DNA of 64,000 nucleotides, taken from the NCBI RefSeq assembly GCF_030499535.1, contig NZ_JASTLB010000001.1, positions 2,728,001 to 2,792,000 on the forward strand. The letters are read 5' to 3'. Both the position numbers and the translations under genes were made by a program. Shown piece by piece: positions 40,958-58,288 of the stretch (position 1 is its first letter; each line of letters begins with the position of its first letter). This DNA is from Streptomyces sp. TG1A-8. Lineage in GTDB: Bacteria; Actinomycetota; Actinomycetes; Streptomycetales; Streptomycetaceae. The notes beneath the pieces are model-generated. The model had not been told where the DNA came from, did not search any database, and worked only from the letters and a program-made list of their open reading frames with translations.

Positions 40958-41130
40958 GAAACTGACAGTAACGCCAACGACCATCTACTTTCAGCGGTTT
41001 GCACCGAATAGCAGAAGTTGTTCACATGACGGGGCGGAAAGTGGTATAGCACCCGTTCCGCCCCGCCGTGCCGGTCGGTGATCAGACAACTCCCCGCAAC
41101 CGACGGGGAGTTGGCGCCGCCCGGGCCGGG

Positions 41131-43285: not shown

Positions 43286-43297
43286 CTACGCGCGTAG
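43286..43297 (+). promoter_or_regulatory. CTACGCGCGTAG operator and promoter of the purine nucleoside phosphorylase gene
   Basis: A perfect 12-bp palindrome, identical to copies before deoC and add. Downstream, TACCCT (43310-43315) looks like a -10 box and ends 7 nt before the GTG start, so the mRNA may be leaderless. The palindrome covers the -35 position, which suits repression. Confidence 0.75.
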
Positions 43298-43322
43298 GCG
43301 AAGACCAGCTACCCTCATCGGC

Positions 43323-44147
43323 GTGAACGCATCTCTTCTTCCGGACGACATCCAGGGCGACCCCTACGCCGCCGCCGACGCCGCCGCCGCGCGCCTGCGC
43401 GAACTCACCGGCGCCGAGACCCACGACGTCGCCCTCGTGATGGGCTCCGGCTGGGCTCCGGCCGTCGACGCGCTGGGCGCCCCCGACGCCGAGTTCCAGG
43501 TCACCGAGGTGCCCGGCTTCCCGCCGCCGGTGGTCGAGGGGCACGGCGGCAAGATCCGCTCGTACTCCTCCGGTGGCAAGCGCGCGCTGGTGTTCCTGGG
43601 CCGCACGCACTACTACGAGGGACGCGGCGTGGCCGCCGTGGCGCACGGCGTGCGCACCGCCGTCGCCGCCGGCTGCAAGACCGTGGTCCTCACCAACGGC
43701 TGCGGCGGCCTGCGCCAGGGCATGCGCCCCGGCCAGCCGGTGCTGATCAGCGACCACATCAACCTGACGGCGACCTCGCCGATCGTCGGCGCCAACTTCG
43801 TCGACCTGACGGACCTGTACTCGCCGCGGCTGCGCGCCCTGTGCAAGGAGATCGACCCCACCTTGGAGGAGGGCGTCTACGCGCAGTTCCCCGGCCCGCA
43901 CTACGAGACCCCGGCCGAGATCCGCATGGCCCGTGTGATCGGCGCCGACCTGGTCGGCATGTCCACGGTCCTGGAGGCCATCGCCGCGCGCGAGGCGGGC
44001 GCCGAGGTGCTGGGCATCTCCCTGGTCACCAACCTCGCGGCGGGCATGACGGGGGAACCCCTCAACCACGAGGAGGTCCTCCAGGCCGGCCGCGACTCGG
44101 CGGCCCGGATGGGCTCGCTGCTGGCCCGGGTACTGGACAAGCTGTAA
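43323..44147 (+). CDS. punA: Purine nucleoside phosphorylase
   Basis: A 274-residue trimeric-type phosphorylase that splits inosine, guanosine and their deoxy forms into base and (deoxy)ribose 1-phosphate. Signatures are VMGSGWAP, the phosphate and sugar segments [10 protein letters not shown] and [38 protein letters not shown] and the base-binding [10 protein letters not shown]. It starts at GTG 43323, with a likely leaderless mRNA. The pentose 1-phosphate product can be isomerised by the phosphomutase-like enzyme encoded next and, for deoxyribose, passed on to DeoC. Confidence 0.93.
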
Positions 44148-44259
44148 CCGCGACCGCGCCCGGCCGGACCGGACCGGTGGCGGGGCGAACGGGCGGAACG
44201 GGGGTCCGGGGGCGGGGTCCCCGGGTACCGCACACGGACAAGGAGAGGTTGACCACGAC

Positions 44260-45891
44260 GTGCACGACGATCTCATCGCCAGGGCCACCGCATGGCTCGC
44301 CGAGGACCCCGACCCGGAGACCCGCGACGAACTCGCCGGGCTGATCCGGGCGGGGGACGCCGGCGAACTCTCCGCGCGCTTCGGCGGCACCCTCCGGTTC
44401 GGCACCGCGGGCCTGCGCGGGGAACTGGGCGCCGGCCCGATGCGCATGAACCGCGCCGTCGTCATCCGCGCCGCCGCCGGCCTGGCCGCGTACCTGAAGA
44501 AGGACGGCCGGACCGACGGACCCGTCGTCATCGGTTACGACGCCCGCCACAAGTCCGCCGACTTCGCCCGGGACACCGCGGCCGTGATGACCGGCGCGGG
44601 CCTGCGCGCGGCGGTCCTGCCCCGCCCGCTGCCCACCCCCGTCCTGGCCTTCGCCGTCCGGCACCTGGGCGCGGTCGCGGGCGTGGAGGTCACCGCCAGC
44701 CACAACCCGCCCCGCGACAACGGCTACAAGGTCTACCTGGGCGACGGCTCCCAGATCGTGCCGCCCGCCGACGCGGAGATCGCCGCCGAGATCGACGCCA
44801 TCGCCTCGCTGCACGACGTGCCCCGCCCGGACGGCGGCTGGGAGACCCTGGACGACGCGGTCCTGGACGCCTATCTGGCCCGCACGGACGCCGTGCTGGC
44901 CGCGGGCTCCCCGCGCACGGCCCGTACCGTCTACACGGCGATGCACGGCGTCGGCAGGGACGTCCTGCTGGCCGCCTTCGCCCGCGCCGGCTTTCCCGAG
45001 CCGGTGCTGGTCGCCGAGCAGGCCGACCCGGACCCGGACTTCCCGACCGTCGCCTTCCCCAACCCGGAGGAGCCGGGCGCGATGGACCTGGCGTTCGCGC
45101 GGGCCCGGGCGGCGGACCCCGACCTGGTCATCGCCAACGACCCGGACGCGGACCGCTGCGCCGTCGCCGTCAGGGACGGGGACGACTGGCGGATGCTGCG
45201 CGGCGACGAGGTGGGCGCGCTCCTCGCCGCCCACCTGGTGGACCGCGGGGCGACCGGCACGTTCGCCGAGTCGATCGTCTCCTCCTCCCTGCTGGGCCGC
45301 ATCGCCGGGAGGGCGGGACTGCCCCACGAGGAGACGCTCACCGGCTTCAAGTGGATCGCCCGCGTGCCGGGCCTGCGCTACGGCTACGAGGAGGCCCTCG
45401 GCTACTGCGTGGACCCCGAGGGCGTGCGCGACAAGGACGGCATCACGGCGGCCCTGCTGATCACGGAACTGGCCTCGCGGCTGAAGGAGGAGGGCCGCAC
45501 CCTCCTCGACCTGCTGGACAACCTCGCCGTGGAGCACGGTCTGCACGCCACCGACCAGTTGTCGGTCCGCGTCCAGGACCTCTCCGTCATCTCCGACGCG
45601 ATGCGCCGCCTGCGCGAGCACCCGCCGGCCGTGCTGGCGGGCCTGCCCGTCACCCGCTCCGAGGACCTGAGCCTGGGCGCCGGCGCCCTGCCGCCGACTG
45701 ACGGCCTGCGCTACACCCTGGACGGCGCCCGCGTGATCGTGCGCCCCAGCGGCACCGAGCCGAAACTGAAGTGCTACCTGGAGGTCGTCGTGCCGGCCCC
45801 CGCCCACGCCGACCTCCCGGCGGCCCGCATCCGGGCGGCGGAACTGCTCGCCGCCGTCAAGCGGGACCTCGCCGCGGCCGCGGGCATCTGA
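44260..45891 (+). CDS. Phosphohexomutase (phosphomannomutase/phosphoglucomutase family)
   Basis: A 543-residue alpha-D-phosphohexomutase. The active-site Ser lies in TASHNPPRDNGYKVY, the metal loop is NDPDADRCAV, the sugar-binding loop is GYEEALGYCVD, and the phosphate loop is RPSGTEPKLK. N-terminal LRFGTAGLRGELGAGPMRMN is typical of the long PGM2-like form, which can act on ribose or deoxyribose 1-phosphate as well as hexose phosphates. Standing directly after the nucleoside phosphorylase gene, it could convert pentose 1-phosphate to 5-phosphate for DeoC (inference). GTG start at 44260 with AGGAG 15 nt before. Confidence 0.9.
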   Translation: MHDDLIARATAWLAEDPDPETRDELAGLIRAGDAGELSARFGGTLRFGTAGLRGELGAGPMRMNRAVVIRAAAGLAAYLKKDGRTDGPVVIGYDARHKSADFARDTAAVMTGAGLRAAVLPRPLPTPVLAFAVRHLGAVAGVEVTASHNPPRDNGYKVYLGDGSQIVPPADAEIAAEIDAIASLHDVPRPDGGWETLDDAVLDAYLARTDAVLAAGSPRTARTVYTAMHGVGRDVLLAAFARAGFPEPVLVAEQADPDPDFPTVAFPNPEEPGAMDLAFARARAADPDLVIANDPDADRCAVAVRDGDDWRMLRGDEVGALLAAHLVDRGATGTFAESIVSSSLLGRIAGRAGLPHEETLTGFKWIARVPGLRYGYEEALGYCVDPEGVRDKDGITAALLITELASRLKEEGRTLLDLLDNLAVEHGLHATDQLSVRVQDLSVISDAMRRLREHPPAVLAGLPVTRSEDLSLGAGALPPTDGLRYTLDGARVIVRPSGTEPKLKCYLEVVVPAPAHADLPAARIRAAELLAAVKRDLAAAAGI

Positions 45892-45970
45892 GCGCCGGGG
45901 TGCCCCCCGCCCGGGGGCGCCCCGCGCCGCGGGGGCGGAGCCGCGTGCAGCGCCGCCCCGGGGCGGAACC

Positions 45971-46660
45971 TCAGCCCGTGGCGAGCAGGACCGCCAGCAG
46001 GACCGCCCCCGCGACCGCCGGCGCGACCACCTCGTACGCCCAGCGGACCGTGACCTCGCCCCGGGCCGTCTCCGTCCCGCCGCGGCGCTCCAGCAGGTCG
46101 CGCAGGTCGGTCATGATCTGGTCGGACTCCGCGCGGGCCGGGCCGGCGAAGGCGTCGGAGGTGCTGTAGCCGCCGGGGATGCCGAGGCCGTCGCGGCCGA
46201 ACCCGCCGCGGCTGCCGCTCCGCAGCGTGGCCGCCGCGCGGGTCTGGCGGCGGGCCGCCTTCCGGCGGGCGCGCAGCGAGACGGGGACGGCCCACAGCTG
46301 GTACTTGGCGCCGGACCGGGTGACGACCTCGTTGGTGTAGCGGGAGCGCAGGGACGCGATCTCGCCCCAGGGCAGGACGATCACCCGGAAGGGGTTGCGG
46401 ATCCGCAGCCGGTCGACGCCGGCGAAGACCGCCGGCCGGAAGGTGAAGGCGATCACCAGCGGCACGACGAGGATCAGGCCGGCGAGCGCCAGCCACGGCG
46501 TGCGCCCGTGGCCGCGGAACAGCGCGTCGAAGCCGAGCCAGCCGACGAGCACGAGCAGCAGTGCACCGGCCACGAGCGCCAGGGGCGAGCGGTAGATCCG
46601 GTCCTTGGCGGTGGGCACCGGGGGCGGTGGCGCGGGTGACTGGTGGTCCGGGGTCGTCAT
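45971..46660 (-). CDS. PH-domain membrane protein
   Basis: A 229-residue protein. A Pro-rich N-terminus is followed by two membrane helices (SPLALVAGALLLVLVGWLGFDALF, TPWLALAGLILVVPLVIAFTF), then a bacterial PH-like domain (DRLRIRNPFRVIVLPWGEIASLRSRYTNEVVTRSGAKYQLWAVPVSL), and a last helix (VAPAVAGAVLLAVLLA). Such proteins are common in actinobacteria, with unknown function. It lies divergent from deoC, 130 bp apart, in the order typical of Streptomyces. Confidence 0.85.
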   Translation of the reverse strand: MTTPDHQSPAPPPPVPTAKDRIYRSPLALVAGALLLVLVGWLGFDALFRGHGRTPWLALAGLILVVPLVIAFTFRPAVFAGVDRLRIRNPFRVIVLPWGEIASLRSRYTNEVVTRSGAKYQLWAVPVSLRARRKAARRQTRAAATLRSGSRGGFGRDGLGIPGGYSTSDAFAGPARAESDQIMTDLRDLLERRGGTETARGEVTVRWAYEVVAPAVAGAVLLAVLLATG

Positions 46661-46765
46661 GGGTTCGATTCTGCCCCACGGCCGCGACCGCGGGCCGACC
46701 CGCCCGGGGCCGGTGCGGAGCGCCGCCCGCGCGGGCGGCGGACCGCTTCCCGGGGTGTACAGCCG

Positions 46766-46777
46766 CTACGCGCGTAG
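46766..46777 (+). promoter_or_regulatory. CTACGCGCGTAG operator and promoter of deoC
   Basis: The same 12-bp palindrome as before the phosphorylase gene and add. It lies in the spacer of a readable promoter: TGTACA (46756-46761), 17 bp, TATGCT (46779-46784). The -10 box ends 6 nt before the in-frame GTG 46791, consistent with a leaderless mRNA. Confidence 0.8.
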
Positions 46778-46790
46778 ATATGCTCGTCTG

Positions 46791-47750
46791 GTGACCATGT
46801 CCACCACCGCACCCCACTCACTCGCCGACGTCACCGCGTCCGACGGCACGCTGCGCCGCTTCCTCCACGGGCTGCCCGGCGTCGACGCGGTCGGCCTGGA
46901 GGCACGCGCCGCGTCCCTCGGCACCCGTTCCATCAAGACCACCGCGAAGGCCTACGCCATCGACCTCGCCATCTCGATGGTCGACCTGACGACGCTGGAA
47001 GGCGCGGACACCCCGGGCAAGGTCCGGGCGCTCGGCGCCAAGGCGGTGCGTCCCGACCCGACGGACCGGACGGCCCCCGCCACCGCGGCCGTCTGCGTCT
47101 ACCCCGACATGGTGGCCGTCGCCAAGGAGGCCGTCGCCGGCTCCGGGGTGAAGGTCGCCTCGGTCGCCACCGCCTTCCCGGCCGGCCGCGCCGCCCTCGG
47201 CGTCAAGCTGGCCGACGTGCGCGACGCCGTCGCCGCGGGCGCCGACGAGATCGACATGGTCATCGACCGGGGCGCGTTCCTTGCGGGCAGGTACCTGAAG
47301 GTCCACGACGAGATCGTCGCCGTGAAGGAGGCCTGCGGCACCAGTGCCCGGCTGAAGGTCATCTTCGAGACCGGCGAGCTGTCGACGTACGACAACATCC
47401 GCCGGGCGAGCTGGCTGGGCATGCTGGCGGGCGCCGACTTCATCAAGACGTCCACCGGCAAGGTCGCCGTCAACGCGACGCCCGCCAACACCCTGCTGAT
47501 GCTGGAGGCGGTGCGCGACTTCCGCGCCCAGACCGGCGTCCAGGTCGGCGTGAAGCCCGCGGGCGGCATCCGCACGAGCAAGGACGCGGTCAAGTTCCTG
47601 GTCCTGGTCAACGAGACCGCGGGCGAGGACTGGCTGGACGACCACTGGTTCCGCTTCGGCGCCTCCTCACTGCTCAACGACCTGCTGATGCAGCGTCAGA
47701 AGCTGGCCACCGGCCGCTACTCCGGCCCCGACTACGTGACGGTGGACTGA
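46791..47750 (+). CDS. deoC: Deoxyribose-phosphate aldolase
   Basis: A 319-residue class I aldolase that cleaves 2-deoxyribose 5-phosphate to acetaldehyde and glyceraldehyde 3-phosphate. Motifs are IDLAISMVDLTTLEGAD, VCVYPDMVAVAKEAV, EIDMVIDRGAF, LKVIFETGEL and the Schiff-base Lys region FIKTSTGKVAVNATP, then VGVKPAGGIRTSKDAVKF. GTG 46791 is chosen because the -10 box ends 6 nt before it; ATG 46797 is the alternative. Two aldehyde dehydrogenase genes follow closely and could oxidise the acetaldehyde. Confidence 0.94.
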   Translation: MTMSTTAPHSLADVTASDGTLRRFLHGLPGVDAVGLEARAASLGTRSIKTTAKAYAIDLAISMVDLTTLEGADTPGKVRALGAKAVRPDPTDRTAPATAAVCVYPDMVAVAKEAVAGSGVKVASVATAFPAGRAALGVKLADVRDAVAAGADEIDMVIDRGAFLAGRYLKVHDEIVAVKEACGTSARLKVIFETGELSTYDNIRRASWLGMLAGADFIKTSTGKVAVNATPANTLLMLEAVRDFRAQTGVQVGVKPAGGIRTSKDAVKFLVLVNETAGEDWLDDHWFRFGASSLLNDLLMQRQKLATGRYSGPDYVTVD

Positions 47751-47755
47751 TCACC

Positions 47756-49195
47756 ATGGCATCCGCATTCGAGTACGCGCCGGCACCCGAGTCCCGGTCC
47801 GTCGTCGACATCGCCCCCTCCTACGGCCTGTTCATCGACGGCGAGTTCGCCGAGGCGGCCGGCGGCCAGGTCTTCAAGAGCGTCTCGCCGTCCACCGAGG
47901 AGGTCCTCTCGGAGGTCGCCCGGGCCGGCGCCGAGGACGTCGACCGCGCGGTGCGCGCCGCCCGCGCGGCGTTCGGGAAGTGGTCGGCGCTGCCGGGCGC
48001 CGAGCGCGCCAAGTACCTGTTCCGCATCGCCCGCATCGTCCAGGAGCGCAGCCGTGAGCTGGCCGTCCTGGAGACGCTGGACAACGGCAAGCCGATCAGG
48101 GAGACCCGCGACACGGACCTCCCGCTGGTCGCCGCGCACTTCTTCTACTACGCGGGCTGGGCCGACAAGCTCGACCACGCCGGTTTCGGCCCGCACCCGA
48201 AGCCGCTGGGCGTGGCCGGCCAGGTCATCCCGTGGAACTTCCCGCTGCTGATGCTGGCCTGGAAGGTCGCCCCCGCGCTCGCCACCGGCAACACGGTCGT
48301 CCTGAAGCCGGCGGAGACCACGCCCCTGTCCGCGCTCTTCTTCGCCGACGTCTGCCGCCAGGCGGGCCTGCCGAGGGGCGTCGTCAACATCCTCCCCGGC
48401 TACGGCGACGCGGGCGCCGCGCTCGTCGCCCACCCGGACGTGGACAAGGTCGCCTTCACGGGCTCCACGGCCGTCGGCAAGGAGATCGCCCGCACGGTCG
48501 CGGGCACGCGGAAGAAGCTCACCCTCGAACTGGGCGGCAAGGGCGCCAACATCGTCTTCGACGACGCCCCGGTCGACCAGGCCGTCGAGGGCATCGTCGA
48601 CGGCATCTTCTTCAACCAGGGCCAGGTCTGCTGCGCGGGCTCGCGCCTGCTGGTCCAGGAGTCGGTCCACGACGAGGTGCTGGACGCCCTCAAGCGCCGC
48701 CTGTCCACCCTGCGCCTCGGCGACCCGCTGGACAAGAACACCGACATCGGCGCGATCAACTCCGCCGAGCAGCTGGCCCGGATCACCGCGCTCGCCGACC
48801 AGGGCGAGGCGGAGGGCGCCGAACGCTGGTCCCCGGCCTGCGAACTGCCCTCCTCCGGCTACTGGTTCGCACCGACGCTGTTCACGGGCGTCACCCAGGC
48901 GCACACCATCGCCCGCGACGAGATCTTCGGCCCGGTGCTGTCCGTCCTGACCTTCCGCACGCCCGACGAGGCGGTCGCCAAGGCGAACAACACCCCGTAC
49001 GGCCTGTCGGCGGGCATCTGGACGGAGAAGGGCTCCCGCATCCTGGCCGTCGCGAGCAGGCTGCGCGCCGGTGTCGTCTGGTCCAACACGTTCAACAAGT
49101 TCGACCCCACCTCGCCGTTCGGCGGCTACAAGGAGTCGGGCTTCGGCCGCGAGGGCGGCCGCCACGGCCTGGAGGCGTACCTCGATGTCCGATAA
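47756..49195 (+). CDS. Aldehyde dehydrogenase (full length)
   Basis: A 479-residue NAD(P)-dependent aldehyde dehydrogenase. Substrate and cofactor motifs are PWNFPLLMLAWKVAPALATGN, the Rossmann VAFTGSTAVGKEIA, the general-base Glu in LELGGKGANIVFDD, and the nucleophile Cys in NQGQVCCAGSRL, then EIFGPVLSVLTF and the C-terminal PFGGYKESGFGREGG. It begins 5 bp after deoC and the next gene overlaps its end by 11 bp, so the three are one operon. A role in oxidising acetaldehyde from deoxyribose is inferred from position. Confidence 0.93.
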   Translation: MASAFEYAPAPESRSVVDIAPSYGLFIDGEFAEAAGGQVFKSVSPSTEEVLSEVARAGAEDVDRAVRAARAAFGKWSALPGAERAKYLFRIARIVQERSRELAVLETLDNGKPIRETRDTDLPLVAAHFFYYAGWADKLDHAGFGPHPKPLGVAGQVIPWNFPLLMLAWKVAPALATGNTVVLKPAETTPLSALFFADVCRQAGLPRGVVNILPGYGDAGAALVAHPDVDKVAFTGSTAVGKEIARTVAGTRKKLTLELGGKGANIVFDDAPVDQAVEGIVDGIFFNQGQVCCAGSRLLVQESVHDEVLDALKRRLSTLRLGDPLDKNTDIGAINSAEQLARITALADQGEAEGAERWSPACELPSSGYWFAPTLFTGVTQAHTIARDEIFGPVLSVLTFRTPDEAVAKANNTPYGLSAGIWTEKGSRILAVASRLRAGVVWSNTFNKFDPTSPFGGYKESGFGREGGRHGLEAYLDVR

Positions 49196-50096
49196 GACGG
49201 AAAAGATCGAAAAGACCGGGCGGCTCTCCGTCCCCAAGACCTACAAGCTGTACGTCGGCGGGAAGTTCCCGCGTTCCGAGAGCGGCCGGGTGTACGAGGT
49301 GACGGACTCGCAGGGCAAGTGGCTGGCCAACGCGCCCCTCTCCTCCCGCAAGGACGCCCGGGACGCGGTCGTGGCCGCGCGCAGGGCGTTCGGCGGCTGG
49401 TCCGGCGCGACGGCGTACAACCGGGGCCAGGTCCTGTACCGGGTCGCGGAGATGCTGGAGGGCCGCCGCGACCAGTTCGTGCGCGAGGTGGCCGCCGCGG
49501 AGGGCCTGTCGAAGCCGAGGGCGGCGGTGGTCGTCGACGCGGCCGTGGACCGCTGGGTCTGGTACGCGGGCTGGACCGACAAGATCGCGCAGGTGATCGG
49601 CGGTGCCAACCCGGTCGCGGGCCCGTTCTTCAACCTCTCCTCCCCGGAGCCGACCGGCGTGGTCGCCGTGCTGGCCCCGCAGGAGTCGTCCTTCCTCGGC
49701 CTGGTCTCCGTCGTCGCCCCGGTGATCGCCACCGGCAACACCGCGGTCGTCGTGGCCTGTGCGAAGGCCCCGCTGCCCGCCCTCTCCCTGGGCGAGGTGC
49801 TGGCCACCTCCGACGTCCCCGGCGGCGTGGTCAACGTCCTGTCCGGGCGCACGGCGGAGATCGCCGCACCGCTGGCCGCGCACCAGGACGTCAACGCGAT
49901 CGACCTCGCGGGCGCCGACGAGGCGCTGGCGAAGGAACTGGAGATCGCGGCGGCGGACAACCTCAAGCGGGTCCTGCGCCCACAGGCCGTGGACTACTTC
50001 GAGACGCCCGGCACCGAGCGCATGACGGCGTTCCTGGAGACCAAGACGGTCTGGCACCCGACGGGGGCGCTGGGCGCCTCGGGTTCGTCGTACTGA
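49185..50096 (+). CDS. Short aldehyde dehydrogenase-like protein lacking the catalytic Cys
   Basis: A 303-residue protein from ATG 49185, overlapping the preceding gene by 11 bp. It aligns with the N-terminal and Rossmann part of aldehyde dehydrogenases (YKLYVGGKFPRSESGRVYEV, ARRAFGGWSGATAYNRGQVLYRVAEMLEGR, EPTGVVAVLAPQESSFLGLVSVVAPVIATGN) and stops before the catalytic Cys domain, ending with a short distinct tail. The tight coupling and intact frame suggest a non-catalytic partner subunit of the full-length enzyme rather than decay. That is inference. Confidence 0.85.
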   Translation: MSDKTEKIEKTGRLSVPKTYKLYVGGKFPRSESGRVYEVTDSQGKWLANAPLSSRKDARDAVVAARRAFGGWSGATAYNRGQVLYRVAEMLEGRRDQFVREVAAAEGLSKPRAAVVVDAAVDRWVWYAGWTDKIAQVIGGANPVAGPFFNLSSPEPTGVVAVLAPQESSFLGLVSVVAPVIATGNTAVVVACAKAPLPALSLGEVLATSDVPGGVVNVLSGRTAEIAAPLAAHQDVNAIDLAGADEALAKELEIAAADNLKRVLRPQAVDYFETPGTERMTAFLETKTVWHPTGALGASGSSY

Positions 50097-50213
50097 GCGC
50101 ACCGGGTTCGTCGTACCGCGGCGCGCCCGCCGGGGCTGTTGTCCCGAGCGGGCGCCGGCCGCGGGAGCACCGGAGGCCGCCGCCGGCGGCCCGGGGTCCC
50201 CGGCCGGGCGCCC

Positions 50214-50615
50214 TCAGCCGGCCGGCGTCCCCAGCAGCCGCCCGGCCACCGGCACGCTGCCGAACGACGGCGCCTGCGCCACGGGGCCCGTCAGCATCCG
50301 GGACGTCACCGGCTTGAAGTCGGCGACCTGGGTGCCCACCTCGTTGTCCAGCGGGTCCACGCCGGTGCCCGCGAGCGGGTTCGGCTTGAGGCCGGCGACG
50401 GGTCCGGTGACGTGGCCCACGGCGCCCCCCAGGGCGCGCGTACCCGCCCGGGGGCCGGTGTGGCCGGTGCCCAGGGGGCCGTGGTCCACGCCCGCGGCCG
50501 GCAGCGGGTCGGCGGACGCCGTCGCCGCGCCCGCCCCCAGGGCGGCCGCGGCCGCCGCGAGGGCGATCAGGGCGCGCCGCGCGGTCGGGTGCGGGGAGGA
50601 AGTGTGTCGGGCCAT
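50214..50615 (-). CDS. Small secreted protein, unknown function
   Basis: A 133-residue exported protein. The signal peptide is RRALIALAAAAAALGAGAATASA. The mature part is Gly/Pro/Val-rich with short repeats such as GPLGTGHTGP and GPVAGLKPNPLAGTGVDPL, and has no Cys. ATG 50615 (AAGGTGG 8 nt before) is preferred over GTG 50627. It resembles in style the secreted protein at 56550 (both end in a V-x-G-rich segment with LLG). No family is recognised. Confidence 0.75.
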   Translation of the reverse strand: MARHTSSPHPTARRALIALAAAAAALGAGAATASADPLPAAGVDHGPLGTGHTGPRAGTRALGGAVGHVTGPVAGLKPNPLAGTGVDPLDNEVGTQVADFKPVTSRMLTGPVAQAPSFGSVPVAGRLLGTPAG

Positions 50616-50742
50616 CGCTGGTGCCACCTTCTGGTGCGCAGGGTGATGAGGTCGACACGAAGGGTAGTTGAGGTGGGGCTCACGCTCAAAAGCCGACCCG
50701 CGGGGTCGGCAGGCGGGCCGCCATGCGTCAAACTGGTGTTCC

Positions 50743-51405
50743 GTGAGCCTTCATCTCCCGTCCTCCGCCCGCGTCGTGCTGCTGTGCGGCCCCTCGGGCT
50801 CGGGCAAGTCCCTCGTCGCCGCCCGTTCCGGGCTCCCCGTGCTGCGCCTCGACGACTTCTACAAGGAGGGCGGCGACCCGACGCTGCCACTGGTGGACGG
50901 GAGTTCGGACATCGACTGGGACCATCCGCTGTCGTGGGACGCGGACGTCGCGGTCGAGGCGATCACCCGGCTGTGCGCCACGGGATCGACGTCCGTGCCG
51001 GTGTACGACATCGCGCTCAGCGCCCGCACCGGCGCGGAGACGCTGAGCATCGGCCGCACCCCGCTGTTCATCGCGGAGGGCATCTTCGCCGCGGAGATCG
51101 TCGGGCGCTGCCGGGACCTCGGGGTGCTGGCGGACGCGCTCTGCCTGACCCGCGGACCGGTCACCACCTTCCGCCGGCGCTTCCTGCGGGACCTGAAGGA
51201 GGGCCGCAAGTCGGTGCCCTTCCTGCTGCGCCGCGGCTGGCGGCTGATGCGCGCCGAGCGCACGATCGTCGCCCGCCAGGTCTCCCTGGGCGCCCACCCC
51301 TGCGACCGGGACGAGGCGCTGGACCGGCTGGCGGCGGCCGGGCGGCGCGCCCCCGGACACGCCCCCGGGCGGGCGTCCGAGCAGGCACCGGCGCAGGCGT
51401 CGTAG
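50743..51405 (+). CDS. Uridine kinase-like P-loop protein
   Basis: A 220-residue P-loop NTPase from GTG 50743. Walker A is LLCGPSGSGKSLV, followed by LRLDDFYKEGGDPTLP and DWDHPLSWD, typical of the uridine kinase/phosphoribulokinase group, and PVYDIAL and FIAEGIFAAEIV later. It probably phosphorylates uridine (or a related nucleoside) with ATP or GTP, which fits the many nucleoside-salvage genes nearby. The C-terminal 30 residues are Ala/Pro-rich and disordered. Confidence 0.85.
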   Translation: MSLHLPSSARVVLLCGPSGSGKSLVAARSGLPVLRLDDFYKEGGDPTLPLVDGSSDIDWDHPLSWDADVAVEAITRLCATGSTSVPVYDIALSARTGAETLSIGRTPLFIAEGIFAAEIVGRCRDLGVLADALCLTRGPVTTFRRRFLRDLKEGRKSVPFLLRRGWRLMRAERTIVARQVSLGAHPCDRDEALDRLAAAGRRAPGHAPGRASEQAPAQAS

Positions 51406-51537
51406 CCGTGTGACGGCCGTGCACGGCGCAGCGGGACCGGTCGGCCCCCGGCCCACCGGTCCCGCTGTCGCGCTCCCCCGTTCTCCCCCGTGGGCCCACC
51501 CTCCGGTGGTCCCCGCTCCCCCGCTTCCCCCGTACCT

Positions 51538-52314
51538 TCAGGCGACCAGTTCGCCGAAGGCGTCCTCCTCGTCACGGCCGAAGCTGAGGACCTGGTCCTC
51601 GCGCAGCCGGCGCAGCGAGCGCCAGATGCTGGACTTCACCGTGCCGACGCTGATGCCGAGTATGTCCGCGATCTCCGGGTCCGTGCGGCCCTCGTAGTAG
51701 CGCAGGACCAGCATGGTGCGCTGCGGCTCGGGCAGCCGGGCCAGCGCCTGCCACAGGACCGCGCGCAGCTCGGTGCCGCGCATCGCGTCCGTCCCGCCGG
51801 GCGTCTCCGGCAGTTCCTCGGTCGGGTACTCGTTGAGCTTGCGCCGCCGCCAGGCGCTGATGTGCAGGTTGGTCATGGTGCGGCGGAGGTATCCGCCGAC
51901 GGCCGCCTTGTCGCTGATGCGGTCCCACGCCCGGTAGGTCGAGAACAGCGCGCTCTGCAGCAGGTCCTCGGCCTCGAAGCGGTCACCGGTCAGGTGGTAG
52001 GCGGTGGCGTACAGGGAGGCGCGGCGTTCCTGGACGTAGGCGGTGAACTCCGCCTCCGCCTGCGAACGGCGCTCCCCCGGGTCCTCCCCGTACGCGGTTC
52101 CCTCGTGCGTCCCCTCCGTCTGCGCGTCGACCACCGTCATGCAACCGGTGTGCTGACGCCCGGTACCGCGGGCGCACCCCCGTCCCGCGCCGGGCTCCCG
52201 GCCCCGCTCGATCAGGGAGGTGCTCCCACCGGTGCCGGCCTTCTCGGGCCCCCGGTGCACGTCGTGCAGACGCGTGACCACTGCGCTGGTGCTCATGCCG
52301 TGCGGCGTGTTCAT
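51538..52314 (-). CDS. sigQ: ECF sigma factor SigQ (SigE family)
   Basis: A 258-residue sigma factor divergent from afsQ1, the arrangement of sigQ in S. coelicolor as I recall. Region 2 is EDLLQSALFSTYRAWDRI...VGGYLRRTMTNLHISAWRRRK, and region 4 is LPEPQRTMLVLRYYEGRTDPEIADILGISVGTVKSSIWRSLRRLRE. ATG 52314 has a strong ribosome site (GGGGAG, 6 nt), so an N-terminal extension of about 60 residues is included; ATG 52140 would start at the sigma domain. Transcription is probably switched on by phosphorylated AfsQ1 through the box at 52421, 107 bp upstream. Confidence 0.9.
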   Translation of the reverse strand: MNTPHGMSTSAVVTRLHDVHRGPEKAGTGGSTSLIERGREPGAGRGCARGTGRQHTGCMTVVDAQTEGTHEGTAYGEDPGERRSQAEAEFTAYVQERRASLYATAYHLTGDRFEAEDLLQSALFSTYRAWDRISDKAAVGGYLRRTMTNLHISAWRRRKLNEYPTEELPETPGGTDAMRGTELRAVLWQALARLPEPQRTMLVLRYYEGRTDPEIADILGISVGTVKSSIWRSLRRLREDQVLSFGRDEEDAFGELVA

Positions 52315-52420
52315 CTCGCGCTCCCCGTGGTCGACTTCCGGCGTCCGGCCTGCTCGGTGCTGCTTGCCCGCCCGTGCCGAAAAGCTTGCCGACCGACCTT
52401 CATGGCCGTGTCCGCCGACT

Positions 52421-52436
52421 GTCACAGACCTGTCAC
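52421..52436. promoter_or_regulatory. AfsQ1-binding box between sigQ and afsQ1
   Basis: GTCAC-AGACCT-GTCAC fits the published AfsQ1 pattern GTnAC-N6-GTnAC (from memory) exactly. It lies almost midway, about 107 bp from both start codons, so it can serve both sigQ and the afsQ operon. Confidence 0.85.
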
Positions 52437-52542
52437 AGGGGCCCGGTCCGGGCGTGTCACGGAGGGCGCACAGGAACGGCCGGCGGCGGCGGTGGCGCCG
52501 CACAGGTCGTACGCAAGCGCGTGCATGGGCCAGAATGAGCCC

Positions 52543-53220
52543 GTGCCTTCCCTGTTGCTGATCGAGGACGACGACGCCATCCGTACGGCCCTGGAGCTCT
52601 CCCTGACGCGCCAGGGGCACCGGGTGGCCACCGCTGCCAGCGGTGAGGACGGTCTGAAGCTGCTGCGCGAGCAGCGGCCGGACCTGATCGTGCTGGACGT
52701 GATGCTGCCCGGCATCGACGGGTTCGAGGTGTGCCGGCGCATCCGGCGCACCGACCAGTTGCCGATCATCCTGCTGACCGCGCGCAGCGACGACATCGAC
52801 GTGGTGGTCGGGCTGGAGTCCGGCGCCGACGACTACGTCGTCAAGCCCGTGCAGGGCCGGGTGCTGGACGCCCGGATCCGGGCGGTGCTGCGGCGCGGGG
52901 AGCGCGAGTCCAGCGACTCGGCGACCTTCGGCGGCCTCGTCATCGACCGCTCCGCGATGACCGTGACCAAGAACGGCGAGGACCTGCAGCTCACGCCGAC
53001 CGAGCTGCGGCTGCTGCTGGAGCTGAGCCGGCGGCCCGGACAGGCGCTGTCGCGGCAGCAGTTGCTGCGGCTGGTGTGGGAGCACGACTACCTGGGCGAC
53101 TCGCGTCTGGTGGACGCGTGCGTGCAGCGGCTGCGCGCCAAGGTGGAGGACGTGCCCTCCTCCCCGACCCTGATCCGCACCGTCCGCGGGGTCGGCTACC
53201 GCCTGGACGCGCCTCAGTGA
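52543..53220 (+). CDS. afsQ1: Response regulator AfsQ1
   Basis: A 225-residue OmpR/PhoB-type regulator. The receiver domain has the acidic pair LLIEDDDA, the phosphorylated Asp52 in VLDVMLPGIDG, the Thr of LLTARSDD and the Lys of DDYVVKPV. The C-terminal winged helix has TPTELRLLLELSRRPGQALSRQQLL and RLVDACVQRLRAKVE. In S. coelicolor AfsQ1 controls antibiotic production and nitrogen use in response to glutamate. GTG 52543 gives the known length; ATG 52525 would add six residues. afsQ2 overlaps its stop (GTGA). Confidence 0.95.
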   Translation: MPSLLLIEDDDAIRTALELSLTRQGHRVATAASGEDGLKLLREQRPDLIVLDVMLPGIDGFEVCRRIRRTDQLPIILLTARSDDIDVVVGLESGADDYVVKPVQGRVLDARIRAVLRRGERESSDSATFGGLVIDRSAMTVTKNGEDLQLTPTELRLLLELSRRPGQALSRQQLLRLVWEHDYLGDSRLVDACVQRLRAKVEDVPSSPTLIRTVRGVGYRLDAPQ

Positions 53221-54881
53221 CCGACACGCAGGAGGACTCGCGCGGCCGGGCCGCGGGGCGCGGGGGGAGTCTGTCGCGGCTGCGCCTGACCAGCCTCAGG
53301 CTGCGGCTGGTCGTGGTGTTCGCGCTGGTCGCGCTGACGGCCGCGGTGTCGGCGTCGGCCATCGCGTACTGGCTGAACCGGGAGGCGGTGCTCACCCGCG
53401 CCCAGGACGCGGTGCTGCGCGACTTCGAGCAGGAGATGCAGAACCGGGCGGGCGCGCTGCCGGTGCACCCCACGCAGGACGAACTGCAGCGCACGGCGGG
53501 CCAGATGGCGGTCAGCAGCCAGCGCTTCAGCGTGCTGCTGGCCGGCCGGGACGCGAACGGCAAGACGGTGTACGGCAACTCGGGGGCCCTGAACGGGTTC
53601 TCGCTGGGGGACGTGCCCGCGTCGCTGCGCACCGCGGTGAACAGGCGGCAGGAGGTGACCGGGAGCAACAGGTCGCCGTACCACCTGTACTGGCAGCGGG
53701 TGGACGACCACGGCACGCCCTACCTGGTGGCCGGCACCCGGCTCGTCGGCGGCGGTCCGACGGGCTACATGGCCAAGTCCCTGGAGCCGGAGGCGAAGGA
53801 CCTCAACTCGCTGGCCTGGTCGCTGGGCATCGCCACCGCCCTCGCGCTGATCGGCGCCGCGCTGCTCGCGCAGGCCGCCGCCACGACCGTGCTGAAGCCG
53901 GTGCACCGGCTCGGGGTGGCCGCCCGGCGGCTCGGCGAGGGCCGGCTGGACACCCGGCTGAGGGTGTCGGGCACGGACGAACTCGCCGACCTGTCCAGGA
54001 CGTTCAACAACGCGGCCGAGGCGCTGGAGAAGCGGGTCGCCGACATGGCCGCGCGCGACGAGGCCTCCCGCCGGTTCGTCGCCGACATGAGCCACGAGCT
54101 GCGCACGCCGCTGACCGCCATCACCGCCGTGACGGAGGTGCTGGAGGAGGAGCTGGAGTCCGAGGCCGGGGGCATCGACCCGATGGTCGAACCGGCGGTG
54201 CGGCTCGTCGTCAGCGAGACCCGGCGGCTGAACGACCTGGTCGAGAACCTGATGGAGGTCACCCGCTTCGACGCGGGCACCGCCCGCCTGGTCCTCGACG
54301 ACGTCGACATCGCCGACCAGATCACCGCGTGCATCGACGCCCGCGCCTGGCTGGACGCCGTCGAACTGGACGCCGAGCGCGGCATCCATTCCCGGCTCGA
54401 TCCGCGCCGCCTGGACGTCATACTGGCCAACCTGATCGGCAACGCGCTCAAGCACGGCGGATCGCCGGTGCGGGTGTCGGTGCGCATCGACGGCGACGAC
54501 CTGGTCGTCGCGGTGCGCGACCACGGGCCCGGCATCCCCGAGGACGTCCTGCCGCACGTCTTCGACCGCTTCTACAAGGCCAGCGCCTCCCGGCCGCGCT
54601 CCGAGGGCAGCGGCCTGGGCCTGTCCATCGCCTTGGAGAACGCCCACATCCACGGCGGCGGGATCACCGCCGCCAACTCCCCCGACGGCGGTGCCGTGTT
54701 CACGCTGCGGCTGCCGCGGGACGCCGCGCGGCTGGCCGAGGGGGGCGGGGAGGCCGGCGACGACGGCACGGACGGCCGTCACGGCCAGGACGCCCGGCTC
54801 CCCCGGCACGACGGCCGCGGCGGACACGGGGAGGACGGGGGCGCCGGCCGGGCCGGGGCCCCGGGGGAGGAGGGGACGTGA
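53217..54881 (+). CDS. afsQ2: Sensor histidine kinase AfsQ2
   Basis: A 554-residue membrane kinase, partner of AfsQ1. Membrane helix 1 (about 31-52), an extracellular sensor domain (53-195), membrane helix 2 (about 198-223), HAMP (VLKPVHRLGVAARRLGEG...), the HisKA site SHELRTPLTAI with His293, and the ATPase boxes N (LIGNALKHGG), G1 (DHGPGIP) and G2 (GSGLGLSIA). The C-terminal 50 residues are Gly/Arg/Asp-rich and variable. It starts at GTG inside the afsQ1 stop and its own stop overlaps the afsQ3 GTG (GTGA), giving tight coupling. Confidence 0.95.
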   Translation: MTDTQEDSRGRAAGRGGSLSRLRLTSLRLRLVVVFALVALTAAVSASAIAYWLNREAVLTRAQDAVLRDFEQEMQNRAGALPVHPTQDELQRTAGQMAVSSQRFSVLLAGRDANGKTVYGNSGALNGFSLGDVPASLRTAVNRRQEVTGSNRSPYHLYWQRVDDHGTPYLVAGTRLVGGGPTGYMAKSLEPEAKDLNSLAWSLGIATALALIGAALLAQAAATTVLKPVHRLGVAARRLGEGRLDTRLRVSGTDELADLSRTFNNAAEALEKRVADMAARDEASRRFVADMSHELRTPLTAITAVTEVLEEELESEAGGIDPMVEPAVRLVVSETRRLNDLVENLMEVTRFDAGTARLVLDDVDIADQITACIDARAWLDAVELDAERGIHSRLDPRRLDVILANLIGNALKHGGSPVRVSVRIDGDDLVVAVRDHGPGIPEDVLPHVFDRFYKASASRPRSEGSGLGLSIALENAHIHGGGITAANSPDGGAVFTLRLPRDAARLAEGGGEAGDDGTDGRHGQDARLPRHDGRGGHGEDGGAGRAGAPGEEGT

Positions 54882-55501
54882 CCGTACGCCGAACGCGGCG
54901 CCTCCGGCGCCTGCCGGTGCTGCCTCTCCTGGGCGCGCTGCTCACCGGGTGCGGGATCCAGGCCACCGAGGTGCCCACGGACTTCGGCGGGGCGCCGTCG
55001 CGGGTGCCGTGCTCGCCGTCCGGGCCGTCCGACGCCTCGGCGCAGTCCTCGCGGGGGGTGCCCGTGCAGGTCTTCCTGCTGTGCGGCTCGTCCCTGGTGG
55101 CCGTGGACCGGACGGTCCGCGTGCCGGACGGCACCCCGGACGCGCGGCGCCGGGTGTTCGTGGCCCAGGGCCTGCTGGACCTGCTCGCCGCCTCCCCGTC
55201 CGCCGCCGAGAAGGCGGCCGGCTACACGACGTACGTGCCGGGCGGCCTGGGCGCGGCCGGGCCGGACCCGGGGGACCCGGACGACACCCTGCGGCTGGGC
55301 ACCGCGCCGGACCGGCTCGCCCCGTACGCCCTCGCCCAGCTGGTGTGCACGCTGTCGGACTCGGCGGCGACGGAGGGCGACGGCTCGGTGATCCTCGGTG
55401 GCCCGGCCGGCGGGGCCCTGCGCCGCTACGAGTGCACCGACGACGTCCGCGACCACCCGGGCACCACCGAGCCGCCCTCCAGCGAGGCCGCGAAGGGCTG
55501 A
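54878..55501 (+). CDS. afsQ3: Lipoprotein AfsQ3
   Basis: A 207-residue lipoprotein: basic start TVRRTRRLRRL, hydrophobic core, lipobox LLTGC with the lipidated Cys near residue 25. The mature part carries a GerMN-like segment (VPVQVFLLCGSSLVAVDRTVRVPD...RRVFVAQGLLDLL). It is the third gene of the afsQ operon and may modulate signal detection by AfsQ2 at the membrane surface (inferred). A GTG start shares four bases with afsQ2. Confidence 0.92.
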   Translation: MTVRRTRRLRRLPVLPLLGALLTGCGIQATEVPTDFGGAPSRVPCSPSGPSDASAQSSRGVPVQVFLLCGSSLVAVDRTVRVPDGTPDARRRVFVAQGLLDLLAASPSAAEKAAGYTTYVPGGLGAAGPDPGDPDDTLRLGTAPDRLAPYALAQLVCTLSDSAATEGDGSVILGGPAGGALRRYECTDDVRDHPGTTEPPSSEAAKG

Positions 55502-55620
55502 GGGGACCCGCGGGAGGGGGCACCGCGGGCGCGCGCCGGGACGGTGGTGTGGCGGACGCCTCACGGGCCGTTGCGCGACCGGCCGGAACCGTCCGCGCGC
55601 GGAGGTGCGTCTAGGGGGGC

Positions 55621-56190
55621 GTGCAGCGTCAAGGCTCCATCGGCGGCAGCGCCGCGATCCGCGTCCGTGCGACAGGGGGTGTCCTCCTCGTCGCCCACCT
55701 GGCGCTCGTCGCCTGGCTGACGCTGCGGCCCCTCGACGTGCCCTGGGTGATGCCCGCCAACCTGCGCCCGCTGGCCGGCGTCCGCGCGGACCTGGCACTC
55801 GGCTGGCCGGCGGCGGCCGGACCGCTCGGCGAGGGGCTGGGGCTGCTCGCCCCGCTCGGCGTGCTGCTGCCGGTGGTCCACGGCAGGCTCGCCGCCTCCC
55901 CGCTGTCCTCCCTGATCCGCACGGCGGCTGCGGGGGCGCTGCTCTCCCTGGGCATCGCCCTGCTGCAGAGCGGCGTGCCGGGGCGGGTGGTGGACGTCGA
56001 CTCGCCGCTGCTGAACACGGCCGGCGTGGTGCTGGCCCACCTGGCGGTGGTGCCCGCGGGCCGCGCCCGACTGCGGCGGCGGCTGCGGCGCGGGCCTCGT
56101 CCGGCGCGCGGGGCCGTGACGCCCACCGTGCAGGAGGAGCCGGTTCAGGGACGGACCCCGACGATTCCCAGGGTTGGAATCGCCCCTTAG
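55621..56190 (+). CDS. VanZ-family membrane protein
   Basis: A 189-residue protein from GTG 55621, with GGGGGG directly upstream. Hydrophobic segments are VLLVAHLALVAWLTL, GEGLGLLAPLGVLLPVV, LIRTAAAGALLSLGIALLQSG and LLNTAGVVLAHLAVV. The order ...LRPLDVPWV..., N-terminal helix, then ...DVDSPLLNTAG... matches VanZ-like proteins, some of which affect teicoplanin resistance; most have no known role. The tail is basic and Pro-rich. Confidence 0.82.
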   Translation: MQRQGSIGGSAAIRVRATGGVLLVAHLALVAWLTLRPLDVPWVMPANLRPLAGVRADLALGWPAAAGPLGEGLGLLAPLGVLLPVVHGRLAASPLSSLIRTAAAGALLSLGIALLQSGVPGRVVDVDSPLLNTAGVVLAHLAVVPAGRARLRRRLRRGPRPARGAVTPTVQEEPVQGRTPTIPRVGIAP

Positions 56191-56280
56191 AGTGATGCTT
56201 CGTCCCGTTCTTCTCCGTACCGTGGAACGCAGACGGGGTCGCCGGCAGGGGCCTCGCACCGACTCACGGAGGAGCCGCAG

Positions 56281-56481
56281 ATGTCCAGCCTCGCCCGCCC
56301 CACCAACGGCCGCATGATCGGCGGAGTGTGCGCCGCGCTGGCCCGCCGCTTCGGCACGTCCGCGACGACGATGCGGGTGGTCTTCCTGCTGTCGTGTCTA
56401 CTTCCCGGCCCGCAGTTCGTGCTCTACATAGCACTGTGGATCCTGCTGCCCACCGAGGACGGGACGCGCTCCGCCTGGTAG
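56281..56481 (+). CDS. PspC-domain small membrane protein
   Basis: A 66-residue protein that consists of one PspC domain: RPTNGRMIGGVCAALARRFGTSATTMRVVFLLSCLLPGPQFVLYIALWILLPTED. It has one or two membrane passes and a conserved GGVCAALA start. PspC proteins belong to envelope-stress systems; this short stand-alone form is frequent in Streptomyces. A GGAGG site lies 9 nt before ATG. Confidence 0.9.
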   Translation: MSSLARPTNGRMIGGVCAALARRFGTSATTMRVVFLLSCLLPGPQFVLYIALWILLPTEDGTRSAW

Positions 56482-56549
56482 GCCCGGACCGGGGGACGCC
56501 GTTGGAGCGCACCTGGAAGTGCCCGGGCCTCCAACGGCGGGTCCGGGGG

Positions 56550-56933
56550 TCAGCCGAGTGAAACGCCGTTGACCGACACGCCGCGCGTGGGCAGGCCCTG
56601 CACCGGCAGGCCGCCGAGGAGCCCGGTGACGGGCGTGACCCGGCCGTGGGCGAGGGCGCTCTCGGCGGTCGGCACCACGGTGGCGACGCCCTTGGCGACG
56701 ACCGGCTGCGCGGCGACGACACCCCGCTCGGCCACGGGCTCGACGCGGTTCAGCGTCTCGGTGCCGGACAGCACCTCGACGACCTTCTCCGACGGGAGCG
56801 TCCTGGTGACGGTGTCCAGCGCCTGGGCGGCGTCCGGGGCGGCCGGGGCCGCGTTGGCCGCCCCCGCGCCTGCGGCGGCGAAAGCGGCGCCGAGGGCGGC
56901 GACACCGAGGGTCTTGGCGGCAGACTGCTTCAT
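56550..56933 (-). CDS. Small secreted protein, unknown function
   Basis: A 127-residue exported protein from ATG 56933 (AAGGA 10 nt before). The signal peptide is KQSAAKTLGVAALGAAFAAAGAGAANA. The mature part is Ala/Val-rich with no Cys (TLPSEKVVEVLSGTETLNRVEPVAERG) and ends PVTGLLGGLPVQGLPTRGVSVNGVSLG. It is a Streptomyces-type secreted protein without a known role. It lies after add on the same strand. Confidence 0.8.
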   Translation of the reverse strand: MKQSAAKTLGVAALGAAFAAAGAGAANAAPAAPDAAQALDTVTRTLPSEKVVEVLSGTETLNRVEPVAERGVVAAQPVVAKGVATVVPTAESALAHGRVTPVTGLLGGLPVQGLPTRGVSVNGVSLG

Positions 56934-57084
56934 CGTGAATGCGTCCTTGAATGCGGAGACGGGTGATCGCAAACGATCCGAGCGGTCCCCGACCGTAAAC
57001 ATGCCGGGCTGTCCGCCGCAAACACGCACATGCGGGCGGCCGGCGTGAGCCCGTCCGCACTCCGCCCGCCGGACCAAGGGTTTT

Positions 57085-58260
57085 CTAGCCGCGCGAATCC
57101 GTGGAACCGCTGGTGGAGGCGGTCTGCTGGAACAGCCATTCGGATTTCAGTTCCGCGTATCCGGGCTTCAGCACGTCATTGATCATGGCAAGTCTTTCGT
57201 CGAAAGGAATGAACGCTGATTTCATCGCATTGACGGAGAACCACTGGAGATCGTCGAGCGTGTAACCGAACGCCTCGACAAGGTGCTCGAATTCCCGGCT
57301 CATGCTGGTGTGCGACATCAGCCGGTTGTCGGTGTTGACGGTCGCCCGGAAGTGCAGTCGGCGCAGCAGCCCGATGGGGTGCTCGGCGTACGAGGACGCG
57401 GCCCCGGTCTGCAGGTTGGAGCTGGGGCAGAGTTCCAGCGGGATCCGCTTGTCGCGCACGTACGCCGCCAGCCGCCCGAGCCGTACCGAACCGTCCCCGC
57501 CGACCTCGATGTCGTCGATGATCCGCACGCCGTGCCCGAGCCGGTCGGCGCCGCACCACTGCAGCGCCTGCCAGATGGAGGGGAGCCCGAAGGCCTCGCC
57601 GGCGTGGATGGTGAAGTGGTTGTTCTCCCGCTTGAGGTACTCGAAGGCGTCCAGGTGCCGGGTGGGCGGATAGCCGGCCTCGGCACCGGCGATGTCGAAG
57701 CCGACGACGCCCGAGTCCCGGTGGCGGTTGGCCAGTTCGGCGATCTCCAGGGAGCGTGCCGCGTGCCGCATGGCGGTCAGCAGGGCGCCGACGCGGATGC
57801 GGTGGCCGTTGTCGCGGGCACTCCGCTCGCCCTGCCGGAAGCCCTCGTTGACCGCCTCGACGACCTCTTCGAGGCTCAGTCCGCCCTCCAGGTGCTGTTC
57901 GGGTGCGTACCGCACCTCGGCGTAGACGACCCCGTCCCCGGCGAGGTCCTCGGCGCACTCCCGGGCGACGCGGACGAGCGCGTCGCGGGTCTGCATCACG
58001 CCGACGGTGTGCCTGAAGGTCTCCAGGTACCGTTCCAGCGAGCCGGAGTCGGCGGCCTCGCGGAACCAGACGCCCAGTTTCTCGGGATCGGTCTCGGGGA
58101 GCGAGGGGTAGCCCGTGTCCCGGGCCAGTTCGACGACGGTCGCGGGACGCAGACCGCCGTCGAGGTGATCGTGCAGCAGAACCTTGGGCGCCCGGCGGAT
58201 CTGGTCCGGCGTCGGGACGCGCGTCTGAACGGTCCCGGTCGGTGCAGTCTGGCTCGTCAT
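57085..58260 (-). CDS. add: Adenosine deaminase
   Basis: A 391-residue zinc hydrolase that turns (deoxy)adenosine into (deoxy)inosine, the substrate of the nucleoside phosphorylase at 43323. Zinc and catalytic residues are seen in [12 protein letters not shown] (HxH), [10 protein letters not shown] (His and Glu), DRLGHGVRI (His), [12 protein letters not shown] and VNTDNRLMS (Asp). Length is normal. ATG 58260 lies 6 nt after a -10-like TAGAGT, so the mRNA may be leaderless. The CTACGCGCGTAG palindrome lies 16 bp upstream. Confidence 0.95.
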
Positions 58261-58276
58261 CTGCGCACTCTAACGC

Positions 58277-58288
58277 CTACGCGCGTAG
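58277..58288 (-). promoter_or_regulatory. CTACGCGCGTAG operator and promoter of add
   Basis: Third copy of the 12-bp palindrome. On the minus strand it is followed by TAGAGT (58272-58267) as -10 box, 6 nt before the add ATG, the same geometry as at the phosphorylase gene and deoC. Confidence 0.78.

Follow-up and report, generated by a model that had tools for sequence, protein, structure and literature searches.

A predicted operator for nucleoside utilisation in Streptomycetaceae and a linked DeoR-family protein as its candidate repressor

Why do three nucleoside-salvage genes of one Streptomyces locus carry the same palindrome in front of them? The question is raised by a 64-kb stretch of the genome of Streptomyces sp. 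TG1A-8 (hereafter the window), in which the CG-centred 12-bp palindrome CTACGCGCGTAG precedes the genes for purine nucleoside phosphorylase (PNP), deoxyribose-phosphate aldolase (deoC) and adenosine deaminase (add). A preliminary description of this DNA had reported these three copies and no other; our exact search of the window agrees (Table 1), as do NCBIfam and Pfam profiles with its naming of the three genes. As judged from the sequence evidence laid out below, a shared nucleoside-salvage operator almost certainly exists. Further, we consider it reasonably probable that CTACGCGCGTAG is the nucleoside-utilisation operator of Streptomycetaceae, which we take to be the family of the window, and that it is read by the DeoR-family protein encoded at 40013-40984.

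Distribution of the palindrome in the genome and the family

Across the whole genome (7.66 Mb), CTACGCGCGTAG occurs exactly four times. The motif scan that the preliminary description had proposed as a check places 4/4 exact copies at nucleoside genes, all within 26 kb; this outcome favours its reading over the refuting case that it had named, namely hits across the genome unconnected with such genes. The fourth copy lies 5 kb beyond the right end of the window (69066-69077 in window-equivalent coordinates), upstream of an operon coding for an ATP-binding cassette (ABC) ATPase, two permeases, the cytidine deaminase Cdd (named from a reading of its frame) and a deoA-type pyrimidine nucleoside phosphorylase. 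Under Markov models (order 1-3) fitted to the window, one would expect 0.0022-0.0035 exact copies in 64 kb and 0.26-0.42 in the genome, where three and four are seen. The pattern CTANNCGNNTAG is found at seven genomic sites, five of them at nucleoside or purine genes. The sole additional match in the window with up to two mismatches to CTACGCGCGTAG, at 6403, is at chance level. Eleven of the 13 one-mismatch sites in the genome were inspected, and the one at the purine-synthesis genes purSQL is alone in being tied to the pathway; purN of this genome has no nearby site at up to two mismatches. Two further sites, one with a single mismatch ahead of a gene for a peptide transporter and one with two mismatches at 6685200, are probably due to chance.

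The motif is found throughout the genus and the family. All 121 Streptomyces genomes contain CTACGCGCGTAG, with two to six copies each and 464 in total, compared to 60 for the reversed pattern. At the level of the order, exact copies are present in 236 of 245 genomes, these being all 233 members of the family and three of the 12 from other families. Each of these three outside-family genomes has a single exact copy, two in coding sequence that we read as guaB (a label from the sequence itself rather than from a family scan) and one inside an open reading frame; none of the three stands at a nucleoside query gene, near-copies there not having been sought. For the locus itself we drew on 80 named records, the best 80 of 533 relatives, which were fetched through the DeoR-family gene with helix-turn-helix patterns and are nearly all Streptomyces, with one labelled Kitasatospora. 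Among those readable, the PNP and deoC copies are exact with a single exception (Table 1), and the gap from operator to start codon is 24 or 25 nt in 77 records at PNP and 13 nt in 51 of 59 at deoC. Likewise, in 12 gene clusters, including the present one, the copies at PNP and add are exact in all, and that at deoC is exact in 10 and has one mismatch in two; the copy at the transporter operon is exact in all eight clusters whose stretch extended to the transporter. The flanks of the operator vary among the aligned segments; as these were chosen for carrying an exact copy, the invariance of the 12 bases is by construction and the flank variation alone is informative. Taken together, the genome scan and the conservation in the family strongly support the suggestion of the preliminary description that nucleoside-salvage genes have a common operator.

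We also fetched outlying sites on purpose, so that the 18 distinct loci whose sites are unexplained by the query genes are not a fair sample. Seven of these, from several relatives, feature a second adenosine deaminase gene, in which the exact 12-mer forms codons 3-6. The others comprise a PNP gene at a contig end, purSQL, a purN-like formyltransferase gene, the three outside-family genomes and five loci without a visible link to the pathway. At the purN-like gene, which belongs to a relative of another genus, the exact copy lies about 100 nt upstream. At two of the link-less loci the copy lies 17 nt before the start of an open reading frame, one coding for a HAD-type hydrolase and the other for a protein without a Pfam match; these copies are either chance occurrences or local members of the regulon.

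Promoter layout and the position of the operator

At PNP, deoC and add, a -10-like hexamer ends 6-7 nt before the start codon, within the 5-8 nt range that we used as a test, and no Shine-Dalgarno-like stretch was seen by eye ahead of the three starts. The hexamers and spacings are those given in the preliminary description, and the coordinates confirm them (Table 1). Each base of the PNP -10 consensus TACnCT exceeds 80% in 75 distinct segments, and TAnnnT is found at the equivalent position of add in most of the relatives compared. This layout extends beyond the family: with one partial match dropped, 22 of 26 actinobacterial PNP genes from outside it display the leaderless-type arrangement, as against 1.0 expected from shuffling, which at the level of sequence supports the earlier suggestion of a leaderless layout. 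No common palindrome or operator motif was seen upstream of the same 26 genes. Thus, the leaderless-type layout is older than the operator. For PNP, deoC and add, the transcript probably begins with the initial base of the start codon.

The position of the operator relative to the promoter varies from gene to gene. It ends 12 nt above the -10 at PNP, 14 nt above it at purS and 4 nt above it at add, where the gap to the start is 16 nt in nine of the 12 rows compared (some genomes being entered twice). The near-copy at bmp, the gene of a Bmp-type binding protein, overlaps the -10, and in this genome the copy at the transporter operon lies below a -10-like stretch. Overall, the sites range from near the -35 (PNP and purS) through the spacer (deoC and add) and over the -10 (bmp) to past the -10 (ATPase) and into coding sequence. 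A site placed anywhere from the -35 into coding sequence is best read as a roadblock, suggesting that CTACGCGCGTAG is a repressor operator.

Two neighbouring genes probably belong to the same functional unit: the aldehyde dehydrogenase gene is likely to be co-transcribed with deoC, and the phosphoglucomutase/phosphomannomutase-family gene (pgm) adjoining PNP is proposed to supply the phosphopentomutase step. As a separate observation, the nucleoside ABC ATPase gene (window-equivalent 69036, minus strand) seems to start at an ATC codon, 8 nt after GGAG. A conserved coding stretch follows this ATC, and GGAGAGTGCG(C/T)C-ATC is common to nine of the 15 loci compared; in this genome there is no in-frame ATG, GTG or TTG ahead of it, and the first such codon lies 48 nt further in. 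The ATC is possibly a conserved non-standard start codon.

Table 1. Coordinates of the regulator gene, operator copies, promoter elements and salvage genes in the window
Feature	Position	Strand	Remarks
DeoR-family regulator, proposed repressor	40013..40984	-	Pfam HTH_DeoR (PF08220) and DeoRC (PF00455) over cut-off
Operator copy 1, CTACGCGCGTAG, PNP promoter	43286..43297		Exact copy in 77 of the 78 readable named records
-10-like TACCCT of PNP	43310..43315	+	7 nt before GTG 43323; leaderless type
Purine nucleoside phosphorylase (PNP)	43323..44147	+	NCBIfam TIGR01698 over cut-off
Phosphoglucomutase/phosphomannomutase-family gene (pgm), adjoins PNP	44260..45891 (longest open reading frame)	+	Pfam PGM_PMM I-IV
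-35-like TGTACA of deoC	46756..46761	+	17 nt before TATGCT; each base >80% in 59 distinct segments
Operator copy 2, deoC promoter	46766..46777		Inside the 17-nt -35/-10 spacer; exact copy in all 59 readable named records
-10-like TATGCT of deoC	46779..46784	+	6 nt before GTG 46791
deoC, deoxyribose-phosphate aldolase	46791..47750	+	TIGR00126 over cut-off
Aldehyde dehydrogenase	47756..49195	+	Pfam Aldedh; starts 5 nt after deoC
add, adenosine deaminase	57085..58260	-	NF006847 over cut-off
-10-like TAGAGT of add	58267..58272	-	6 nt before ATG 58260
Operator copy 3, add promoter	58277..58288

Candidate readers of the operator

The DeoR-family gene is our leading candidate. It lies 1.7-2.8 kb from PNP in 78 of 78 named records, and is within the fetched stretch of 11 of the 12 clusters, our own included, with the 12th just outside. 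Its best match shows 77-94% identity in six of six genomes of the family, compared to 30-46% in all 12 genomes from other families of the order, in which identity rises to 50% only in short fragments of about 60 residues. The helix-turn-helix is identical in 80 of 80 named records, which were partly selected by a search pattern in the helix, and in all seven family sequences found with the whole protein. Judging by position, the 26 outside-family PNP genes have no DeoR-type match on the same contig at a distance of up to 50 kb; their neighbours include pgm in 19 and lpd in 13 of the 26 stretches. We called 85 open reading frames in a 120-kb stretch around the cluster and scanned 37 of the proteins with Pfam: the only regulators among these are the DeoR-family protein, sigma factors and a TetR protein encoded 13 kb past the fourth site. 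The sensor domain of the DeoR-family protein matches E. coli DeoR in the PDB (7l6l), and the equivalog model of E. coli DeoR gives it 74 of 244 bits, far under the cut-off. Codon 10, a GTG, is the probable translation start (VFAAERR). By eye, this GTG is preceded at about 7 nt by the hexamer TACTGT (window 40955-40984), and the gene may itself be leaderless. This protein had been named as a second candidate in the preliminary description; linkage and co-distribution now favour it, and we infer from them that it is the probable binder.

The same regulon might instead be served by a regulator encoded elsewhere, of the LacI type or another family, an alternative that we regard as doubtful but worth keeping in sight. 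A LacI-type regulator was suggested in the preliminary description, and the CG-centred dyad and the 27 LacI-type hits in the genome speak for it; even the nearest of these hits is about 130 kb away from the cluster, while the DeoR-family gene stays beside the targets. At the third base from the centre, A prevails in LacI operators, where CTACGCGCGTAG has C, which counts against this family. Linkage of a LacI-type gene to its targets is common in the family without being obligatory; no linked gene was found here, and the recognition helices, read for part of the 27, singled out none. The LacI proteins CytR, AdeR, HpxR and UriR do control nucleoside use elsewhere (PMC4052901), and distant DeoR relatives in genomes without the motif (see below) leave room for another regulator.

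It is very improbable that the palindrome serves as an activator site or as part of the core promoter, even though the deoC copy sits wholly between the -35 and the -10 and the distance to the start codon hardly varies at PNP, deoC and add. The spread of exact and near-copies described above, from near the -35 into coding sequence, is one that no activator or core element needs, and PNP keeps its leaderless -10 layout outside the family without the palindrome. Some additional exact copies found in single genomes do look like chance, namely five of the 18 otherwise unexplained loci and the three outside-family copies. As an account of the motif as a whole, a chance or composition effect is hardly credible, being refuted by the Markov expectation, the reversed control, the gene association and the conservation.

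Several observations weigh against the DeoR-type operator that we propose. In this genome, the sites with up to one mismatch (four exact and 13 with one mismatch, or 17 in all) are outnumbered by the 22 of the reversed control, so that a lone near-copy means little and we used only exact or conserved near-copies; further, the rarity of CTA..TAG words is partly due to composition. Autoregulation was sought, and no operator copy was found in the promoter of the DeoR-family gene. Two distant genomes code for DeoR relatives with 59-65% identity that keep the helix core TSEVTVRRD, and these same genomes have no exact motif and two and four one-mismatch sites, respectively, against 35 and 20 for the control; one of these relatives adjoins a gene for a sugar-binding protein. 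Co-distribution in a single family amounts to one evolutionary event common to many genes and is weak evidence alone, and synteny with accA2 and lpd could hold the DeoR-family gene in place for other reasons. From gene order, we take the gene to correspond to SCO4920. SCO4920 centres an inferred network module that is enriched in sigma factors and not in nucleoside genes (PMC3224704); it also appears, as a DeoR-family member, in a table of glucose-affected regulators (PMC4848846). Finally, purSQL is not an obvious target for a sensor of deoxyribose phosphate, and would be unexpected in a purely catabolic regulon.

Under the preferred reading, a dimeric DeoR-family repressor would bind CTACGCGCGTAG and block RNA polymerase at PNP-pgm, deoC-aldehyde dehydrogenase, add, the ABC transporter-cdd-deoA operon and bmp. 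purSQL would be repressed via a weaker, imperfect site, with the same protein presumably reading the near-copies there and at bmp. The products of these genes would form a route from nucleosides to central metabolism, comprising import, deamination, phosphorolysis, the mutase beside PNP, the aldolase and the aldehyde dehydrogenase. Given this route, a pentose phosphate from nucleoside breakdown, either deoxyribose-5-phosphate or ribose-5-phosphate, would be the natural and probable inducer.

Purine synthesis and comparison with known systems

The near-copies at bmp and purSQL are conserved. In eight of eight genomes read, the bmp gene features CTACGCGCGTTA running into the -10. purSQL of this genome carries CTACCCGCGTAG, with one mismatch, and a near-copy is present in all 30 purS promoters examined (28 with one mismatch and two with two), these being the best 30 PurS matches among 61 genomes. 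A pattern search matched 120 of 296 genomes, its fixed flanks missing other lineages; among these, the site carries one mismatch in 107, none in 10 and two in three, with nine imperfect forms beside the exact one. In this set, positions 2, 5 and 8 are those hit by single changes, and position 4 is affected as well among the 30 purS promoters. That purSQL is held at one mismatch by differing changes hints that a weak site is being selected for and is not simply decaying, although the genomes are not independent of one another. This persistence is the most interesting feature of the system, and the site may be a tuned weak operator. We tentatively suggest, while rating it below an even chance, that the import and breakdown of nucleosides are tied to de novo purine synthesis by one DeoR-type repressor, with the strength of control set by operator quality, exact at the salvage genes and one mismatch off at purSQL. 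As an independent observation, at least 79 of the 120 strings contain GTAG-N4-CTAC, in which the order of the half-sites is reversed, just above the purS operator, part of this element being fixed by the search pattern; it is possibly a second contact site.

A regulon of this kind is ordinary, and we did not find it in print in searches by sequence, locus tag and topic, which covered titles and the beginnings of abstracts in open-licence papers, regulon databases excluded. The 12-mer, and its 10-mer core together with Streptomyces, turned up in unrelated contexts only in such papers. The analysis offers a concrete regulon and operator for nucleoside use, both open to testing, in a genus known for its antibiotics, whose production depends on purine balance by way of (p)ppGpp and c-di-GMP (PMC6627660). 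It also proposes a function for a DeoR-family regulator that PMC4848846 and PMC3224704 mention by family, expression list and network module. Moreover, the exact and one-off operators constitute a natural series for measuring the evolutionary tuning of operator strength.

Among known systems, several touch purines or nucleosides under other regulators. CytR, AdeR, HpxR and UriR place nucleoside uptake and breakdown under one palindromic operator, as we propose here, and differ in being of the LacI type, no gene of which is linked to the present cluster; by term search, the word Streptomyces is absent from the main text of the comparative study of LacI regulators (PMC4052901). The E. coli PurR regulon, that of a purine-synthesis regulator (PMC4052901), is brought to mind by the near-copy at purSQL, through which one regulator may touch purine synthesis. 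It differs in that PurR is of the LacI type, whereas the main targets here serve breakdown and uptake. XdhR of Streptomyces coelicolor is a purine-salvage regulator from the same genus, which, however, has the genes of xanthine dehydrogenase as its targets and (p)ppGpp as its signal (PMC6627660); a term search of the main text of that article returned neither PurR nor "purine nucleoside".

The closest parallel is the E. coli DeoR regulon (deoCABD, nupG and tsx), in which deoCABD and nupG are repressed by DeoR, a protein that senses deoxyribose-5-phosphate (PMC5326754). The two systems share the DeoR helix-turn-helix and sensor domains, targets in deoxynucleoside breakdown and uptake, and palindromic sites at deo and transport promoters, here as predicted from sequence; by eye, both half-sites have TA at bases 4-5 from the centre. 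In contrast, the E. coli operator is TGTTAGAA-TTCTAACA (PMC5326754) and the one described here is CTACGCGCGTAG. Further, E. coli DeoR uses distant looping sites, whereas the putative repressor of Streptomycetaceae would act at single sites close to leaderless promoters, on a set that also includes add, a Bmp-type ABC transporter and purSQL.

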